A program made the translations under genes and the position numbers. Shown here in pieces: positions 45,494 to 53,922 of a stretch of DNA of 64,000 bases (within the stretch, counting starts at the first letter, position 1; each line of letters starts with the position of its first letter). This DNA comes from Pedobacter sp. ok626 (lineage in GTDB: Bacteria > Bacteroidota > Bacteroidia > Sphingobacteriales > Sphingobacteriaceae), in the NCBI RefSeq assembly GCF_900100435.1, contig NZ_FNEX01000010.1:1-64000 (forward strand). Reading direction: 5' to 3'. The notes under the pieces are model-generated. The model ran no database searches, was not told the origin of the DNA, and saw only the letters and a program-made list of their open reading frames with translations.

Positions 45494-47029
45494 CTAAGCT
45501 GCTTTTTTCCTTATATTTTGTGCAATAGCCAATAATCCCCATTCAATTTCTACTTTTTGTTTACCTCTGAGCATGAAACGGCGGAACCCGTGGTTCTGTT
45601 TGATATTAGCGAAAACAGGTTCTACGTCGTAACATCGTTTCTTTCTATGACTGATGCCCTGTTCTGTATTGAGTAGACAATGTGCTTTTTGCTTATGGCT
45701 TTGCAAGTTTTCGTTGATTTCGATCAGACGGTTGCCTTTGGATTTGTGACAAGCGCCATTTAGTGGGCAATTGCTGCAGTTTTTAGCTTGATATCGCCTG
45801 ATTTGTTGCTCGAACCCACTTGCAGTGCGCTTTTTAACTATTCCCACAAAGTCCATACTTTGTCCCATTGGGCAGATGTAGGTGTCTTTTTGTTCATTGT
45901 AAAAAAGCTGATTTGCTGCAAAAGGATATTTTTGATTATAGTGTGCATTTTGTTGTTTATCAAACATATTAAACTTAACGAAAGACTCCACCTGTTTTTG
46001 CTCTAGCAGGGCGTAGTTCTCTTCTGATCCATAACCGGCATCAGCGGTAAGGGTCTTTGGGGGACGATTGAAGCTATTTTCATGTTGTTCCATATGTGAT
46101 TTTAAAGTTAAGATGTCTGTAGGATTGGAGTGAATAGTATAATTGACAATGAACTGGTTTGAAGTGGATATCTGTACATTATAAGCTGGTTTGAGCTGTC
46201 CGTTACGCATATGATCTTCTTTCATTCTCATAAAAGTTGCATCCGGATCAGTCTTACTGTAACTGTTGCGTTCAGCGAGTATTTCTTCCTGATGTTCATA
46301 CTTATTAATAGCCTCAGGATAGTTTTTTGTAAGGTAACGGAGCTTTGCTTTGGTCTTTTTATCCACCTGGTTATTGTTAGCCAGCACTTCATTGAGTTTA
46401 TCAACTGTTGCCTGGATGCTTTCGGGGCTTACTGTTTTTGCCGTAGGTGGTTCAGGTAATAAATCTTCTACCGTAGCCACACTCTGGGCATAGTTCCAGA
46501 TCTCATCAAGCTGCTTTTTCATCTTCGCTTTATTGGTCTGGATGGATTTCTTCCAGACAAAAGTGTACTTGTTGGCATTGGCCTCAATCTTGGTTCCATC
46601 GGTATAAACTTCATCAATACTCAGTAATCCTTCTTCAGCCAGGTACTTGACCACTTCCTCAAATACATTACGCAGAGCATGTTTTAAGCGGGCACCCCGA
46701 AATCGGTTGATCGTATTGTGATCCGGTTTACTCATGCCACTCAACCACATGAAAGGAATACTTTCCCGGCAGGCTATGGCCAGTTTTCTACTGGAATAGG
46801 TATTGGTCACATATCCATAGACCAATACTTTTAAAAGTAATATCGGATGATAATTGGAAGCGCCCCTGATGTGGTAGGCACTCAACAGAGGTTCTACATT
46901 GATCACATTAATAATCTTGTCGACAAGTCTCACAGTATGATCTGCTGGAATCAACTCATCGAAGGTAGGCGGAAATGCCATGAGTTGATGCTGGTAATAG
47001 GGCTTAAAAACAGGTTTCTTATTGGCCAT
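45494..47029 (-). CDS. IS1182-type DDE transposase
   Basis: 511 residues, intact. N-terminal DUF772-like region (PADHTVRLVDKIINVINVEP, MSKPDHNTINRFRGARLKHA), first catalytic Asp D144 (SIDEVYTDGTKIEAN), second D330 (LTADAGYGSEENY), a Cys cluster (CSNCPLNGACHKS), and the catalytic Glu E470 in VEPVFANIKQNHGFRRFMLRG. The order and spacing fit the IS1182 family. Translation begins at ATG 47029. A short hairpin followed by T's on the minus strand overlaps its stop codon (CAGCTT/AAGCTG) and probably ends its transcript. No frameshift, so the element may be active. Confidence 0.95.
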   Translation of the reverse strand: MANKKPVFKPYYQHQLMAFPPTFDELIPADHTVRLVDKIINVINVEPLLSAYHIRGASNYHPILLLKVLVYGYVTNTYSSRKLAIACRESIPFMWLSGMSKPDHNTINRFRGARLKHALRNVFEEVVKYLAEEGLLSIDEVYTDGTKIEANANKYTFVWKKSIQTNKAKMKKQLDEIWNYAQSVATVEDLLPEPPTAKTVSPESIQATVDKLNEVLANNNQVDKKTKAKLRYLTKNYPEAINKYEHQEEILAERNSYSKTDPDATFMRMKEDHMRNGQLKPAYNVQISTSNQFIVNYTIHSNPTDILTLKSHMEQHENSFNRPPKTLTADAGYGSEENYALLEQKQVESFVKFNMFDKQQNAHYNQKYPFAANQLFYNEQKDTYICPMGQSMDFVGIVKKRTASGFEQQIRRYQAKNCSNCPLNGACHKSKGNRLIEINENLQSHKQKAHCLLNTEQGISHRKKRCYDVEPVFANIKQNHGFRRFMLRGKQKVEIEWGLLAIAQNIRKKAA

Positions 47030-47161
47030 ATTTAGTGCTGATTATATCATAAATATATGAAAATCAGTAGATTAAATAAAATTTAAAGCCAAAAAAAAAT
47101 CACCTTAAATTATTAATAATCAAGAATATACAAATGTAAATAAACGCAAAGAGCCTGTATC

Positions 47162-47185
47162 GATTTATGATACAGGCTCTTGTCA
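47162..47185 (-). repeat. Right terminal inverted repeat of the IS
   Basis: On the minus strand it begins TGACAAGAG at 47185. A 12-bp perfect hairpin (47150-47161 with 47169-47180) overlaps it and may double as terminator for the SDR gene. Confidence 0.75.
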
Positions 47186-47200
47186 AAAGATAAGGATATT

Positions 47201-47956
47201 TTATCTTGTTGTGTAACCTCCATTTGCAAAAATGGTTTGTCCGGTAACCCACCATCCGTCCGTTACTAAGAATTCTACCAGTGGTGCGATGTCTTTAATG
47301 TCGGTCAATCCACCTAGTGCTGAGGCGGATTTGTGGTATGCGACTGCTTCTGGTGATTCTTGTCCGTAAAAAAATGGGGTGTCCATTGGGCCGGGTGCGA
47401 CTGCTGTAACTGAAATGCCACGGGTACCAAATTCTTTTGATGCCATTCTGGTAAAATGTTCAACGGGTGCTTTTGCACCTGCATAGGTAGAATACAGTCC
47501 GGTATAAGCTGCCAGTAAAGAGGTTACGATGGTATTTATTTTTCCGTTATCGTTTAAATGTTTGCCAGCTTCCTGGATAAAGAAATAAGCCACTTTGGAA
47601 TTAATGTCGAACATGGTGTCGTATTCTGCTTCTGTGGTTTCCAGGAAGGGTTTTTTCAAGACCATTCCTACTGTGTTGATGGCAATATCGATGCTGCCAA
47701 ATTTTTCTTTTGTTGCTTGAAAAAGTTTTGCAATGTTTTCTACTTTAGTTAAGTCTGCCTGAAACAGGAATGCTTCACCACCTGCATTGGTAATTTCTGC
47801 CAATGTTTGTTCTGCATCTGCCTTTGTACTGTTACTATTGTAGTGTATAGCTATTTTTGCTCCCTTCGATGCAAAGCTGCGGCTCAATAATCCGCCTAAG
47901 TTTTTTGCAGCTCCTGCAATTAAAACTACTTTTCCTTTTAAATCGTTTCTTGCCAT
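47201..47956 (-). CDS. SDR-family NAD(P)-dependent oxidoreductase
   Basis: 251 residues from ATG 47956, chosen over a frame start at 47986 because it gives the usual short lead and places the shared 18-bp element at the same distance as in the neighbouring gene. Rossmann signature KVVLIAGAAKNLGGLLSRSF (a TGxxxGxG variant), NTVG for the NNAG motif, catalytic S146 (IVTSLL), Y158 and K162 (YAGAK), and PG motif VAPGPMDTPFF. Likely a 3-oxoacyl-reductase-like or sugar/alcohol dehydrogenase; substrate cannot be told. The AraC-type regulator gene lies just upstream on the same strand and may control it. Confidence 0.9.
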   Translation of the reverse strand: MARNDLKGKVVLIAGAAKNLGGLLSRSFASKGAKIAIHYNSNSTKADAEQTLAEITNAGGEAFLFQADLTKVENIAKLFQATKEKFGSIDIAINTVGMVLKKPFLETTEAEYDTMFDINSKVAYFFIQEAGKHLNDNGKINTIVTSLLAAYTGLYSTYAGAKAPVEHFTRMASKEFGTRGISVTAVAPGPMDTPFFYGQESPEAVAYHKSASALGGLTDIKDIAPLVEFLVTDGWWVTGQTIFANGGYTTR

Positions 47957-47983
47957 TGTCTGTATGTTTATTATGATGTTATA

Positions 47984-48029
47984 CAAAGGTCTGCAAGAGA
48001 TTTATTTATATCATGGTGAACTTTTCGGG
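47984..48029 (-). promoter_or_regulatory. 18-bp element and promoter-like box of the SDR gene
   Basis: On the minus strand CCCGAAAAGTTCACCATG (48029 to 48012) is followed after 20 nt by GACCTTTG (47991 to 47984), near the TAnnTTTG -7 consensus. The element ends 55 nt before the SDR ATG and overlaps the last codons and stop of the AraC-type gene. An identical element with identical spacing precedes the AraC-type gene itself. Confidence 0.6.
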
Positions 48030-48409
48030 ACTTTTGAGTTGTCTTGTTTTTGTTGCTTTCGAAATTCGCCCGCTGTTTGTCCAGTAAATTTCTTGAAGAA
48101 TTTTGAGAAGTTAGAAGGGTCGTAGGTGAGTTGTTTAGCGATGAAGGCAATAGATAAATCGGTTTCTTTCAAAAGTGATTTTGCTTTTTCTACAATTTTG
48201 AGGTCGTAAAAATGGCAGGGATGATGTCCGGTTGATTTTTGTAAGGTGTCGGATAGATGGGAGTGAGAAATATGTAAGGCGTTTGCGATTTGGTTCAACT
48301 CCAGGAAGTCAGTGGCATTCCCGTTGGCTACATCTTCAACATGTTCGTCTAAAAAAGCAAAGTATTGTTCGGTTATTTCCGCGGCACGCTTGGTTTCGTT
48401 GTGGCCCAT
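48011..48409 (-). CDS. AraC-family transcriptional regulator (short form)
   Basis: 132 residues from ATG 48409. A longer frame to 48511 reads back through the 18-bp element and is rejected as non-coding: its extension contains the same 'PKSSP' as this protein's C-terminus only because of the DNA repeat. The protein is essentially a DNA-binding domain: LNQIANALHISHSHLSDTLQ for the first HTH and SIAFIAKQLTYDPSNFSKFF plus FKKFTGQTAGEFRKQQ for the second. No sensor domain, so it may respond through partners or by level. The preceding 18-bp element suggests autoregulation and control of the SDR gene. Confidence 0.9.
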   Translation of the reverse strand: MGHNETKRAAEITEQYFAFLDEHVEDVANGNATDFLELNQIANALHISHSHLSDTLQKSTGHHPCHFYDLKIVEKAKSLLKETDLSIAFIAKQLTYDPSNFSKFFKKFTGQTAGEFRKQQKQDNSKVPKSSP

Positions 48410-48436
48410 ATTACAGATATGTATAGAATTGATTTC

Positions 48437-48482
48437 TAAAGTTCGGTATTCTAGTACAAATAAACATGGTGAACTTTTCGGG
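48437..48482 (-). promoter_or_regulatory. 18-bp element and promoter-like box of the AraC-type gene
   Basis: CCCGAAAAGTTCACCATG (48482 to 48465, minus strand), 20 nt, then GAACTTTA (48444 to 48437), 55 nt from element to ATG 48409. The layout is identical to that before the SDR gene, so this is most likely an operator for the AraC-type protein. Confidence 0.6.
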
Positions 48483-48719: not shown

Positions 48720-50654
48720 ATGATACGAAGAGTTAGTTTTATATGTTGTTTGTTGAGTTTTGTTGTTCCCATAATACTAAAAGCTCAGTCTCACTATCCC
48801 GGGCAGCATAAAGGCAAGTTTGCAATTGAAGATCAATTAAAGCCTGCGGTTTACAGTTTTGACCTGGATGCCGTTAGGTTGCTGGACAGCCGCTTTAAAC
48901 AAAATATGGAACGCGAACAAAAATGGCTGGCAACTATTGATACAAAACGCTTACTACATAGTTTTAGAACTAATGCTGGCATCTATGATGAGAATGAAGG
49001 GGGATATTTTGAAATAAAGAAACTCGCAGGCTGGGAATCGTTGGACTGTGAGCTGCGTGGACATTCTACCGGACACATTTTATCCGCTTTGGCTTTAATG
49101 TATGCCTCAACAGGGGATAATCAGTACAAACTCAAAGCAGACAGTCTTGTCAGTGGTCTGGCAGAAGTGCAGCAGGTGTTAAACCAAAATGGCTATTTGA
49201 GCGCTTTCCCGCAGGAACTGATCAACAGGAACATGCAGGGAAAAAGGGTCTGGGCCCCTTGGTATACCTTACATAAAATCTATAGTGGATTGATTGATCA
49301 GTATTTGTATTGTAATAACAGATTGGCACTTGAAACAGTCAAGAAAATGGCATCCTGGGCTTACCAGAAACTACAAATTGTAACACCTCAACAACGTAGC
49401 CTTATGTTACGAAATGAATTCGGCGGGATCAATGAATCATTTTATAATCTTTACACTATTACAGGTAATCCAGAGGATCAGTGGCTGGCTGAATTCTTTT
49501 ACCATAACGAAATGCTGGATCCATTAAAAGAAGGAAAAGATATTCTTGAAAAGAAACATGCCAATACCTATATTCCTAAATTGATAGGCCTGAGCCGCAA
49601 TTATGAAATAGAAGGGAAGGGTGAGGGTGATAAAATTGCCAGGTTCTTTTGGGAAACGGTAAATGATCACCATTCCTTTGCTACCGGCAGCAACAGTGAT
49701 AAAGAAAAATTTTTTAAACCAGACCATCAGTCGGCCCACTTAACTGGGTATACAGGTGAAAGCTGTAATGTTTACAATATGCTCAAATTGAGCCGGCACT
49801 TATTTTCGCATACTGCAGATGTTAAATACGCAGACTATTACGAAAAGGCATTATATAATCACATTTTAGGTCAGCAGGATCCAGAAACTGGAATGATTGC
49901 CTACTTTTTACCTATGCTTCCTGGGGCACATAAAGTTTACAGCACAGCTGATAGTTCATTCTGGTGCTGTGTAGGTAGTGGTTTCGAAAACCAGGCGAAA
50001 TACGGCGAAGCTATTTATTATCATACTGAAAAAGAGGTGTATGTAAATCTTTTTATAGCATCGGAGTTAGATTGGAAAGAAAAAGGTTTTAAATTGAAGC
50101 AGGAAACCACTTTTCCTGAAACAGGGAAAATGAAGTTTAGTATTTTACAAAGTCCCGGGCTGCAGATGGGGCTGCAGATCAGGTATCCTTCCTGGGCCCT
50201 TAATGGAGCCCTTCTGAAAGTGAACGGTAAAGTACTGCCAGTAAAGCAAAAACCTGGCAGCTACCTGCTGATCAGCAGAAAATGGAAAGTGGGTGACAAC
50301 GTAGAAGTGGATTTTCCTATGTCTTTACGTACGGTGGCCACTAACGATGATCCTGATGTGGCCGCAATAGTATATGGACCTATTGTTTTGGCAGGGGAGA
50401 TGGGAACGGCTGGTATGAAATCTCCCGCACCTTTTTCAGATCCTAAATTATACAACGATTATTACACCTATGATTATAAGGTGCCCTCCGGTATTGTCAC
50501 CTCATTGACATTGAAAAAGGATAACTTAAACATATCAGTTCGACCTGTGGCTGGAAAGCCGCTTACGTTTAGAACATTAAAAGAAGGAATTTTATTACGT
50601 CCGCTGTACGATATCCATCAGCAAAGATATGTCGTATATTGGAAGCTAAAATAA
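48720..50654 (+). CDS. GH127 beta-L-arabinofuranosidase-like enzyme
   Basis: 644 residues with a signal peptide (ICCLLSFVVPIILKAQ). Formerly DUF1680: alpha6/alpha6 barrel with WESLDCELRGHSTGHILSAL, VWAPWYTLHKIYSGLIDQYL and NEFGGINESFYNLY. The metal/catalytic set of the family is present: E347-x-C349 (TGESCNVYNML) and the C416-C417 pair (SSFWCCVGSG), which in characterised members bind zinc with the second-last Cys acting as nucleophile; E329 (DKEKFF) may be the acid/base. C-terminal beta-sandwich follows. Releases L-arabinofuranose or related sugars from oligosaccharides, probably in the periplasm. First gene of PUL 3, 93 nt before the GH88 gene. Substrate range within GH127 varies, so beta-L-Araf is the family default. 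Confidence 0.9.
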   Translation: MIRRVSFICCLLSFVVPIILKAQSHYPGQHKGKFAIEDQLKPAVYSFDLDAVRLLDSRFKQNMEREQKWLATIDTKRLLHSFRTNAGIYDENEGGYFEIKKLAGWESLDCELRGHSTGHILSALALMYASTGDNQYKLKADSLVSGLAEVQQVLNQNGYLSAFPQELINRNMQGKRVWAPWYTLHKIYSGLIDQYLYCNNRLALETVKKMASWAYQKLQIVTPQQRSLMLRNEFGGINESFYNLYTITGNPEDQWLAEFFYHNEMLDPLKEGKDILEKKHANTYIPKLIGLSRNYEIEGKGEGDKIARFFWETVNDHHSFATGSNSDKEKFFKPDHQSAHLTGYTGESCNVYNMLKLSRHLFSHTADVKYADYYEKALYNHILGQQDPETGMIAYFLPMLPGAHKVYSTADSSFWCCVGSGFENQAKYGEAIYYHTEKEVYVNLFIASELDWKEKGFKLKQETTFPETGKMKFSILQSPGLQMGLQIRYPSWALNGALLKVNGKVLPVKQKPGSYLLISRKWKVGDNVEVDFPMSLRTVATNDDPDVAAIVYGPIVLAGEMGTAGMKSPAPFSDPKLYNDYYTYDYKVPSGIVTSLTLKKDNLNISVRPVAGKPLTFRTLKEGILLRPLYDIHQQRYVVYWKLK

Positions 50655-50747
50655 CGCTGATATTTGACCTTTCTGAAAAAAAGGCAGTAAATATGAGTAT
50701 GTAATTGTTTTTCTATTGTCATTAGGTTAAAACGTATTTGACCAATC

Positions 50748-51965
50748 ATGACTATTTTTCGAAACCTGTTATTAACTGCTATATTCTTGTTTGTTTATGC
50801 TGTTGCAAACGCCCAATTAAATGCTTCAAAAGCTATAGCCTATTGTGCAATTCAAGCTGATAAAACCCTTAAACTGATTCCAGCAGATCGCATAAATATT
50901 CCCCGTGGCATTGCCCATGGAAAAAAGGACTGGAAGTTCGTGGATTTTAAAGACTGGTGTAGCGGCTTCTGGCCAGGAATTTTATGGTATGCTTATGAAG
51001 GTACAGGTAATGTGAAATTTAAGGTGCAGGCGGATAAATTTTCGCGTGAACTTACGCCACTTTCAATGATGAAAGCATTTGACCATGATCTGGGCTTTCA
51101 GATCTTTAACAGCTTTGGAAATGGTTACCGTTTAACAAAGAACCCTGAATATAAAAAAATCATCCTTGCTTCCGCTGATACCTTAGCAACCCTGTTCAAT
51201 CCTACAGTGGGGACTATTTTATCCTGGCCACGTCCAGTACCAAATATGGATTGGCCACAACACAACACGATTATTGATAATATGATCAATCTGGAAATGC
51301 TGTTCTGGGCCTCAAAAAATGGGGGTAGGAAAAAGCTTTATGACATTGCGGTATCACATGCGAAGACGACTATGAAAAACCATTTCAGGTCGGACTACAC
51401 ATCCTACCATGCAGTGGTTTATAACAAGCAAACAGGACTGAAAATAAAAGCTGTTACCCATCAGGGCTATGCTGATAATTCTATGTGGGCAAGGGGGCAG
51501 TCATGGGCTATATATGGCTATACCATGTGTTATAGAGAGACTAAAGATTCGGTATTTTTGGATTTTGCGCAAAAGGTTAGTGATGTGTATTTAAAAGAGC
51601 TACCCGCTGATCTGATCCCTTACTGGGATTTTAATGACCCAGCGATTCCAAATGCGCCACGTGACGCTTCTGCCGCCGCGGTGGTTGCTTCCGCATTACT
51701 TGAACTATCTACATTTACGGAGGACAAGACCAAAGCAAAAATATATCGGAAAAAAGCAGAGCAAATGTTAACGTCTTTGTCCTCTGCAAAATACCAGAGC
51801 CGCGAAAATAACAGTGCTTTTCTATTACACTCAACAGGACATAAACCCAATGGCTCAGAAATAGATGCGGCTATTATTTATGCTGATTATTATTACATTG
51901 AGGCTTTATTACGTCTAAAAAAACTTCAGAAAGGTACCAGTCTTTATTCCAACCTTAAATCGTAA
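50748..51965 (+). CDS. GH88 unsaturated uronyl hydrolase (second copy)
   Basis: 405 residues; signal peptide NLLLTAIFLFVYAVANAQ. Same family as 12051-13316, with WCSGFWPGILWYAYEGTG, FDHDLGFQIFNSFGNGYRLT, TIIDNMINLEMLFWAS and GYADNSMWARGQSWAIYGY; catalytic aspartates D114 and D177. Acts on 4,5-unsaturated uronic acid ends, which implies that a lyase feeds PUL 3, yet no lyase gene is seen in this part of the locus; the PUL 1 lyase or one beyond the window could supply the substrate. It is 55 nt upstream of the GH97 gene. The two GH88 proteins are clearly paralogous but well diverged. Confidence 0.9.
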   Translation: MTIFRNLLLTAIFLFVYAVANAQLNASKAIAYCAIQADKTLKLIPADRINIPRGIAHGKKDWKFVDFKDWCSGFWPGILWYAYEGTGNVKFKVQADKFSRELTPLSMMKAFDHDLGFQIFNSFGNGYRLTKNPEYKKIILASADTLATLFNPTVGTILSWPRPVPNMDWPQHNTIIDNMINLEMLFWASKNGGRKKLYDIAVSHAKTTMKNHFRSDYTSYHAVVYNKQTGLKIKAVTHQGYADNSMWARGQSWAIYGYTMCYRETKDSVFLDFAQKVSDVYLKELPADLIPYWDFNDPAIPNAPRDASAAAVVASALLELSTFTEDKTKAKIYRKKAEQMLTSLSSAKYQSRENNSAFLLHSTGHKPNGSEIDAAIIYADYYYIEALLRLKKLQKGTSLYSNLKS

Positions 51966-52020
51966 ACAGCCGAATTACTTGCCGTAATGGCCTATTTTTA
52001 TTCACATAAACTAATTAGAA

Positions 52021-53922
52021 ATGATGATCCGACTATTAAATTGCTTTTTTCTGATTTTAACCAGCTGTAACCTGTCATTTGCACAGGGTATTGTAAAAGG
52101 TACAGAAGCAACATTACTATCTCCAGATAAAAATACAATAATTAAGTTCTATCAGAAAAGCGATGCCGCCGGCAAAAAAACTTTTTATTATCAGGTTAAC
52201 TATAAAAGTAAAATAGTAATAGCTGAATCCATAATGGAGCTTCAATTGGACAACCATTTATCCGAAAGCGCAATGGCACTTCCGGTCGATAAACATGAGC
52301 GATGGTTTGAAAACCTGAAGGTGAAAAAGATCAGTGTTTCTACCAAAGATACCTCCTGGAAGCCGGTGTATGGCGAGAAGGAGCTTATCCGTGATCGTTT
52401 TAATGCTGCGACAATAGAGGCGGTGAAGGACGATAACCCGATTTATTTAATGAACATTGAGTTAAGAGCTTATGATGAAGGAATCGCTTTCCGTTTCTTT
52501 TTCCCGGAGAATGAAAAAGGTACCTATTACCGTATCGTGGCCGAAAATACTGAGTTTAGTTTACCTGAGGGAACAAAAGCATGGGTAGCTGATTGGGCAC
52601 AGGCACCTTACAAAAAACTACCGTTAAAGAATTGGGAAAGGGAAGCGGAACGCCCATTGACATTGGAATTGCCAAATGGGCTGCATGCCGTATTGGCTGA
52701 AGCTCAAATGGTAGACTATGCACGTACTAAGTTTAAGCTGAGTACAACAAAGTCAAATACGATTCAGACTGCTATGTTTACGCCAGCGGATCTGATTTCT
52801 CCCTTTGCCACACCCTGGCGGGCAATTATGGTAGCCGAAAGTCCAGCTCAACTTGCGGAAAATAATCACTTCATTCTGAATCTTAATGAACCTACGAAAA
52901 TAAAAGACGAAAGCTGGATCAAACCAGGGAAAATAATGCGGGTAATGTCGCAAACAACTAAAGATGCCCTGGAGAATATTGATTTTGCAGTTGCTCGCAA
53001 CCTCCAATATATCCTGTTCGACTGGAAATGGTATGGACCTGCCTTCAGCTTCAGTTCAGATGCGTCTAAAGTGGCCATTAAAGATTTTGACCTCCCTGCA
53101 ATCATAAAATATGGGAAAGAGAAAGGAGTTGGCGTATGGTTGTATGTGAACCAACAAGCCTTATTGATGCAAAGTGACAGTCTGTTTTCTATTTATAAAA
53201 AATGGGGAGTAGCAGGTGTGAAGTTCGGTTTTGTGCAGTCTGGCTCACATCGTTGGACTACCTGGGTGGAGAAAGCGATACAGCAGGCCGCTGAAAATCA
53301 GATTATGGTCAATATTCACGATGACTGGCGGCCAACGGGAGAGCAACGAACCTGGCCAAATCTGATGACTTCAGAAGGCATTAGGGGTAATGAAGAAATG
53401 CCTGATGCTACCAATAATACAGTGATGCCTTTTACACGTTACTTAGCAGGAGCTGCGGATTATACCATTTGTTATTTTGATAAACGAATCAAAACGACGC
53501 ATGGTCATCAGCTAGCGTTGGCGGCAATTTATTTTAGTCCGCTGCAGACCCTTTATTGGTACGATAAACCATCTTATTACCATAATGAGCCGGAATTGGA
53601 GTTCTGGGATAAAATTCCGGCCAGCTGGGATGAAACAAAAGTATTACAAGGGGCTCCGGGCGAATTTGTCAGTGTGGCAAGGCGAAGTGGAAACCAGTGG
53701 TTTATGGGAACCATTACCAATACAGAAGCGCGAATAGTAAAAATAAAATTTGATTTCTTGCCTAAGGGAAAAACTTATGTGGCTAAAATCTACAGTGATA
53801 ACGACAACATAACTACAGCCACTAAGGTCGGTATAGAAACCAAACAGGTGAATGCCAAGACTGTACTTGAAATTAAATTAAAAGCTTCGGGTGGCCAGTC
53901 CATTTGGCTGCAACCGAAATAA
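52021..53922 (+). CDS. GH97 glycoside hydrolase
   Basis: 633 residues with a signal peptide (LLNCFFLILTSCNLSFAQ). GH97 layout: N-terminal beta-sandwich (~25-280; LRAYDEGIAFRFFFPENEKG), TIM barrel (~290-560; NLQYILFDWKWYGPAF, VWLYVNQQALLM, VNIHDDWRPTGEQRTWPNL, GIRGNEEMPDATNNTVMPFT) and a C-terminal beta domain. E458 (GNEE) corresponds to the general acid of the family. At the place of the Asp nucleophile of retaining members there is Gly (G403 in VKFGF), so it resembles the inverting branch, but the position where inverting enzymes have Glu carries Asp (D434). Removes alpha-linked galactose or glucose from oligosaccharides. It is 33 nt before the transporter gene. Confidence 0.88.
   Translation: MMIRLLNCFFLILTSCNLSFAQGIVKGTEATLLSPDKNTIIKFYQKSDAAGKKTFYYQVNYKSKIVIAESIMELQLDNHLSESAMALPVDKHERWFENLKVKKISVSTKDTSWKPVYGEKELIRDRFNAATIEAVKDDNPIYLMNIELRAYDEGIAFRFFFPENEKGTYYRIVAENTEFSLPEGTKAWVADWAQAPYKKLPLKNWEREAERPLTLELPNGLHAVLAEAQMVDYARTKFKLSTTKSNTIQTAMFTPADLISPFATPWRAIMVAESPAQLAENNHFILNLNEPTKIKDESWIKPGKIMRVMSQTTKDALENIDFAVARNLQYILFDWKWYGPAFSFSSDASKVAIKDFDLPAIIKYGKEKGVGVWLYVNQQALLMQSDSLFSIYKKWGVAGVKFGFVQSGSHRWTTWVEKAIQQAAENQIMVNIHDDWRPTGEQRTWPNLMTSEGIRGNEEMPDATNNTVMPFTRYLAGAADYTICYFDKRIKTTHGHQLALAAIYFSPLQTLYWYDKPSYYHNEPELEFWDKIPASWDETKVLQGAPGEFVSVARRSGNQWFMGTITNTEARIVKIKFDFLPKGKTYVAKIYSDNDNITTATKVGIETKQVNAKTVLEIKLKASGGQSIWLQPK

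Follow-up and report, generated by a model that had tools for sequence, protein, structure and literature searches.

A conserved 15-bp element at the -35 region of paired AraC-type and SDR genes in Bacteroidota is a probable operator of the adjoining single-domain regulator

Results

The window, by which we mean the entire 64,000-nucleotide stretch of Pedobacter sp. ok626 DNA that was analysed, carries on its minus strand a gene for a single-domain AraC-type regulator of 132 aa (48011..48409) followed by a gene for an SDR oxidoreductase of 251 aa (47201..47956), and directly 3' of the SDR stop lies a perfect 13-bp inverted repeat (47149..47181, minus strand) that is possibly a terminator. Profile searches place the oxidoreductase in the SDR family, with 156.3 bits against PF13561 (cut-off 27) and 438.2 bits against NF009385, 'SDR family oxidoreductase' (cut-off 296). 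An IS1182-family transposase gene (45494-47029) is found downstream of the SDR gene on the same strand, and glycosidase genes of the GH127, GH88-like and GH97 types (48720-53922) are divergent from the AraC gene.

The regulator, which is the probable binder of the element described below, belongs to the AraC/XylS family, scoring 62.7 bits against PF12833 (HTH_18, residues 41-119; cut-off 33.6) and 45.7 bits against PF00165 (cut-off 26.6); a match to PF07553 fell below its cut-off, so that the significant Pfam domains are the HTH ones. Its structure model (pLDDT 86.6) is an AraC-type DNA-binding domain with a long first helix, in which helices 38-44/49-60, 64-82 and 87-93/98-109 form two HTHs and a long central helix, and the rest of the N-terminus is one helix. 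The best structural matches of the model are AraC-family domains; it superimposes on MarA bound to DNA (1bl0) with Z 13.1 and rmsd 2.2 over 107 aligned residues, and on SoxS at micF (7w5w) with Z 11.9 and rmsd 2.0 over 106. Neither the Pfam domains nor the structure model includes a sensor, ligand-binding or dimerisation domain, as is the case for regulators of the MarA/SoxS type.

A sequence-only reading of this locus had drawn attention to an identical 18-bp element before both genes, and the coordinates bear this out. The 18-mer CCCGAAAAGTTCACCATG occurs exactly at two places on the minus strand, 48012-48029 and 48465-48482, in each case separated by 55 nt from an ATG (at 47956 for the SDR gene and 48409 for the AraC-type gene) and in each case followed after exactly 20 nt by the GANCTTT box that had been described, which reads GACCTTT on the SDR side and GAACTTT on the AraC side and is the 5' part of a -7 box of the form nAnnTTT[GA]. 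The SDR-side copy does double as the final codons of the regulator gene (CCG AAA AGT TCA CCA TGA, or PKSSP*). Dinucleotide shuffles give an expectation of 0.04 matches to the 18-mer in the window at up to 3 mismatches, and the proposed search for the 18-mer elsewhere in the genome returned no further copy with fewer than 3 mismatches: a scan of the 6.76-Mb assembly yielded, besides the two copies, merely four matches, each with 3 mismatches (6 in total; reversed control 8). The unit that is kept in other genomes is a 15-bp core within the 18-mer, CCGAAAAGTTCACCA, here at 48014-48028, where it would serve the regulator in the SDR promoter and lie at about -49 to -35, and at 48467-48481, where it would be an autoregulatory site before the AraC gene.

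The register of the two promoters was taken from the sequence and from a profile of core sites. The SDR promoter has the -7 box GACCTTTG (47984..47991, minus strand), which fits nAnnTTTG in the consensus and position described in PMC9723704, and the AraC promoter has GAACTTTA (48437..48444, minus strand). In the profile, before both genes, an A stands at position 39 and TTTG at positions 42-45 counted from the first base of the core; among the sites found, the bases flanking the core and those between core and box are variable, with the spacing to nAnnTTTG fixed. Mapped transcription starts of Flavobacterium psychrophilum place the sigma-A -7 box TAnnTTTG at -12 to -5, according to PMC9723704, and with nAnnTTTG at fixed spacing the core would therefore lie at about -49 to -35. 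This kept spacing supports the earlier placement of the element at the -35 region, and if the -7 box is indeed at -12 to -5, the element would be an asymmetric site over the -35 region at fixed spacing, as is typical of class II promoters. With this register, transcription would be predicted to start near 47979 for the SDR gene and near 48432 for the AraC gene, leaving a leader of 23 nt in either case. No TTG appears near -33 in the site profile, and the -7 box opens with T in just 7% of the SDR sites and 9% of the AraC sites; both features fit a promoter that is probably weak and in need of help.

Conservation was followed through 198 relatives of the regulator in a contig collection, of which the best 80 were kept, representing 21 named genera and 10 unassigned loci and mainly Sphingobacteriaceae, Chitinophagaceae, Weeksellaceae and Flavobacteriaceae. 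Among these best 80 of 198, a downstream SDR of at least 70% identity was present in 67, no SDR match in 12 and an SDR remnant in one (L102). The 67 were combined with the window and three further loci to give 71 pairs, a count that leaves out the two copies of the window (L001, L002), every locus whose SDR was absent or fell short of 70% identity, and the remnant locus. The core precedes the SDR gene in 71 of these 71 pairs, 67 of which come from the best 80 of 198; the match is exact in 53, has one mismatch in 11 and two in 7, and its 3' end is 50-75 nt ahead of the SDR ATG. These counts do not represent independent events, as the loci share common descent and there is probably overlap between the two genome collections used here. 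Within the same set, it precedes the AraC gene in 34 of 71 pairs, while in the remaining 37 the best match has at least 4 mismatches, so autoregulation through this site is not general. With 3 mismatches allowed, 100 shuffled cores matched on average 0.14 loci on the SDR side and 0.04 on the AraC side, and never more than 2. Lack of conservation before orthologous pairs, which the sequence-only reading had named as evidence that would count against it, is thus not what is seen. The other 13 of the 80 loci, which are outside the pair count, also have the core with up to 2 mismatches, on one or both sides of the AraC gene. On a tree of 85 regulators, the distribution of the AraC-side copy calls for at least 13 changes, only 2 of them forced by well-supported branches, and repeated gain or loss of this copy is likely. 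In eleven loci of Chryseobacterium and Elizabethkingia (L058, L063, L075, L092, L094, L097, L098, L105, L106, L115 and L116), a relative of the regulator has no SDR in its locus and keeps the element before its own gene.

The core overlaps the coding end of the regulator in only 9 of the 71 pairs and is free of it in 62 (67 of the 71 from the best 80 of 198). The nine overlapping cores are read in two frames, giving PKSSP* or PGSSP* in four pairs and SEKFTTK* or SEKFTIK* in five, which argues that the constraint is on the DNA word and that the protein tail is its by-product.

The dependence of the core on the AraC neighbour was examined in 399 family genomes, searched for the exact core, for the regulator (E up to 1e-34) and for the SDR (E up to 1e-100). 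The exact core was found at 76 places in 56 genomes (reversed control 6 places), the regulator in 61 genomes and the SDR in 72. Of 83 SDR places, 59 have a regulator match within 1.2 kb, and all 59 carry the core, 43 exactly and 16 with 1-2 mismatches. Three of the 24 places without a regulator match adjoin an AraC gene of 48-50% identity, below the cut-off, and have the core with one mismatch, such that the core is present in 62 of 62 SDR genes with an AraC neighbour. In contrast, it is found in 0 of 20 SDR places without such a neighbour, where the best match has at least 5 mismatches; of these 20, L184 has only 575 bases between the SDR gene and the contig end on its upstream side, L196, L205 and L206 are partial SDR matches, and L192 has a 39% AraC-domain match that lies more than 2 kb upstream, beyond an intervening gene. 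The coreless group includes the best-scoring SDR relative of the set (L177, 92%), and several of its genomes hold an element-bearing pair elsewhere. SDR genes with the exact core 53-67 nt upstream number 44, namely the 43 and one in genome G315 (L198), which lacks an AraC neighbour and whose genome holds the regulator (L199) about 1 Mb away. The reading of the element as operator-like and tied to its AraC neighbour is therefore supported by 62 of 62 against 0 of 20, together with G315. The 76 exact cores divide into 61 within 1 kb of a regulator match, 1 at the G315 SDR gene, 2 before DoxX_2 genes and 12 that are chance matches inside open frames, sense or antisense.

Among the 66 regulator matches in these genomes, 7 lie away from an SDR gene, and in one of the seven (G022) an exact core precedes a DoxX_2 gene. 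For the other six (L199, L200 and L223-L226, 48-65% identical to the query), no core with up to 2 mismatches was found in the surrounding 3-4 kb, so a regulator gene is no guarantee of a local core, and the core instead marks target genes. DoxX_2 genes carry the core both beside the regulator (L010, L050) and away from it (L202, L203), in the latter case in genomes that hold the regulator, and are likely to be further members of a small regulon. DoxX_2-type genes follow the AraC or the SDR gene, or themselves bear the element at a distance from the regulator, at L010, L050, L102, L198, L202 and L203. A large regulon was considered and rejected, as this genome holds no close copy of the 18-mer beyond the two described and the 14 exact 15-mers away from regulators and SDRs in the family set resolve into 12 in open frames and the 2 before DoxX_2 genes (L202, L203).

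Paralogous pairs allow the two halves of the site to be compared. Group A comprises the pairs L012-L024 and L032 and, in this genome, G000:C16 (L197); its regulators are 40-44% identical (36% for L032, a fragment) and its SDRs 32-35% where matched. Group A resembles the main group in the position of the SDR gene 3' of the AraC gene in most pairs, in the CACCA half and in an about equal spacing to the -7 box. It differs in the upstream half, which is CTTAAnnTGT-like in group A and CCGAAAAGTT in the main group, and the paralogue-type site is CTTAAACTGTCACCA. Group A promoters mostly have two or three tandem copies resembling CTTAAnnTGTCACCATTT, of which the last stands about as far from TTTG as the core does, and the group A pair of this genome (L197:2406) has one such site, TACTTAAACACTCACCA. 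L026 and L030 have the site CGGAAACTARCACCA and L027 has AGGAWACATCACCA. Recognition-helix identity to the main group is 0.71 for HTH2 and 0.38 for HTH1 in group A, and 0.63 and 0.33, respectively, in group B (3 loci).

Discussion

Taking together the conservation, the spacing, the dependence on an AraC neighbour and the fold, all of which were obtained by computation, we consider it highly probable (about 0.86), on genomic grounds, that the element is the operator of the adjoining 132-aa, MarA/SoxS-like, single-domain AraC activator in a class II position. An activator site at the -35 region, likely bound by the AraC-type protein, was also what the sequence-only reading had proposed. In such a mechanism, one regulator monomer would bind directly to the core at about -49 to -35 relative to the predicted transcription start, and would take the place of a -33 TTG box, with HTH2 lying in the -35 groove against the promoter-proximal CACCA half while HTH1 contacts the upstream CCGAAAAG half. 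The bound regulator would recruit RNA polymerase to the weak nAnnTTTG -7 box and so activate rather than repress the SDR gene. It would activate its own gene as well, in positive feedback, in roughly one half of the examined pairs, among them this one.

The position of the element is by itself compatible with activation and repression alike. It is unlikely, although it deserves the most weight among the alternatives, that the AraC-type protein is instead a repressor of the SDR gene, of itself or of both, which blocks RNA polymerase at -35 until a signal arrives. The site does overlap the region that sigma region 4 would occupy, and many local regulators repress themselves. However, a promoter without TTG near -33 and with a T-poor first base of the -7 box (7% and 9%) appears weak and in need of help, no sensor domain was found in the regulator, and SoxS at micF, a class II promoter, is among its close fold relatives.

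Less probable still than repression is that the element is bound by some other factor, be it a regulator or a sigma factor, with the AraC gene a mere travelling companion. Such a factor would be in keeping with the six of 66 regulators that have no core nearby, and linkage of element and AraC gene in nearly all loci would be expected of a companion too. Against it, the core is missing from all 20 SDR genes without an AraC neighbour, several of them in genomes that hold an element-bearing pair elsewhere; the three copies away from a regulator before SDR or DoxX genes (L198, L202, L203) are all in genomes with the regulator; and the site differs among paralogue groups whose HTH1 differs. The location of the element within 75 nt of the start codons might point to an action on translation or attenuation, as part of a transcribed leader or as an RNA element, a very improbable explanation given that the kept nAnnTTTG sits between core and ATG and would place the core upstream of the predicted transcription start. 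A chance repeat, or a recent duplication of the regulator 3' end, is refuted by the conservation of the core in 71 of 71 pairs (67 of them from the best 80 of 198), in line with the sequence-only reading, which had argued from the equal spacing against a chance duplication; even with both window 18-mers identical and readable as PKSSP in the regulator frame, only 0.04 matches are expected in the window, 62 of the 71 cores do not overlap the regulator gene and the other 9 use two frames.

For the element as an operator of the AraC-type regulator, the constancy of CACCA alongside the better kept HTH2, and the variability of the upstream half alongside that of HTH1, suggest from a small number of paralogue groups that CACCA is the half read by HTH2 and that the upstream half is read by HTH1. 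This assignment calls for caution, as the likeness between groups A and B is 0.76 for each of the helices, yet in group B two of the three sites are unlike those of group A. The paralogue groups nonetheless suggest a route to assigning HTHs to site halves. A wider generalisation, to which we would give slightly under even odds, is that minimal AraC regulators across Bacteroidota read one kind of two-part operator at -49 to -35. Its promoter-proximal CACCA half would be fixed and read by an HTH2 that hardly varies, and its upstream half would be exchanged along with HTH1. If so, this would be a natural modular recognition code for private circuits of redox-type genes (SDR, DoxX), and two or more orthogonal circuits would coexist within one genome.

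The kind of system proposed here is already known, and no account of this regulator-site family was met with in the literature searched. MarA, SoxS, Rob and RamA, acting at class II promoters such as micF, are likewise small single-domain AraC proteins with two HTHs and the same fold. In PMC8811837, RamA is described as binding an asymmetric site around -35/-45 and placing one of its HTHs in the groove at -35; the site at the -35 region here agrees with this geometry. The micF site is given there as CACT-N7-AAA and, as written, has the H6 (HTH2) half nearer the promoter, as we propose for this element. The regulator studied here differs from the MarA/SoxS group in sequence (17-21% identity over the aligned part), in its site, in a conserved N-terminal extension of about 40 residues, in having targets that, as found so far, are mostly neighbouring genes, and in working with a Bacteroidota -7 box (TAnnTTTG) in place of -10/-35 boxes. 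With AraC itself it shares the DNA-binding domain (2k9s: phmmer 1.9e-5, Z 11.5), and it differs in being without the arabinose-binding/dimerisation domain and in having a single core per promoter in the main group, as counted by a scan that took the best match only. The activator site of AraC (araI) is next to the -35 region, as is the element here. To our knowledge, the mapping of activator sites is much less advanced in Bacteroidota than in proteobacteria. The sequence GAAAAGTTCACCA was not found in open-licence PMC papers, nor was this AraC-SDR pair found in the open-licence PMC literature on AraC with SDR in Bacteroidetes or on footprinting, as judged by title and abstract beginning; a search there by genus name returned no paper.

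Genome sequences alone give the regulator, its probable operator, the -7 box spacing and a clean natural control, namely near-identical SDR genes with and without an AraC neighbour, and this makes the circuit directly testable. The circuit could also give a promoter-regulator pair as a genetic part.

On the SDR side, and not on the AraC side, AAAnTT is kept at positions -6 to 0 before the core. Its variable base is G in 40% of cases, and AAAGTTC then repeats with a 10-bp period; AAAnTT next to the SDR-side core is a possible second contact.
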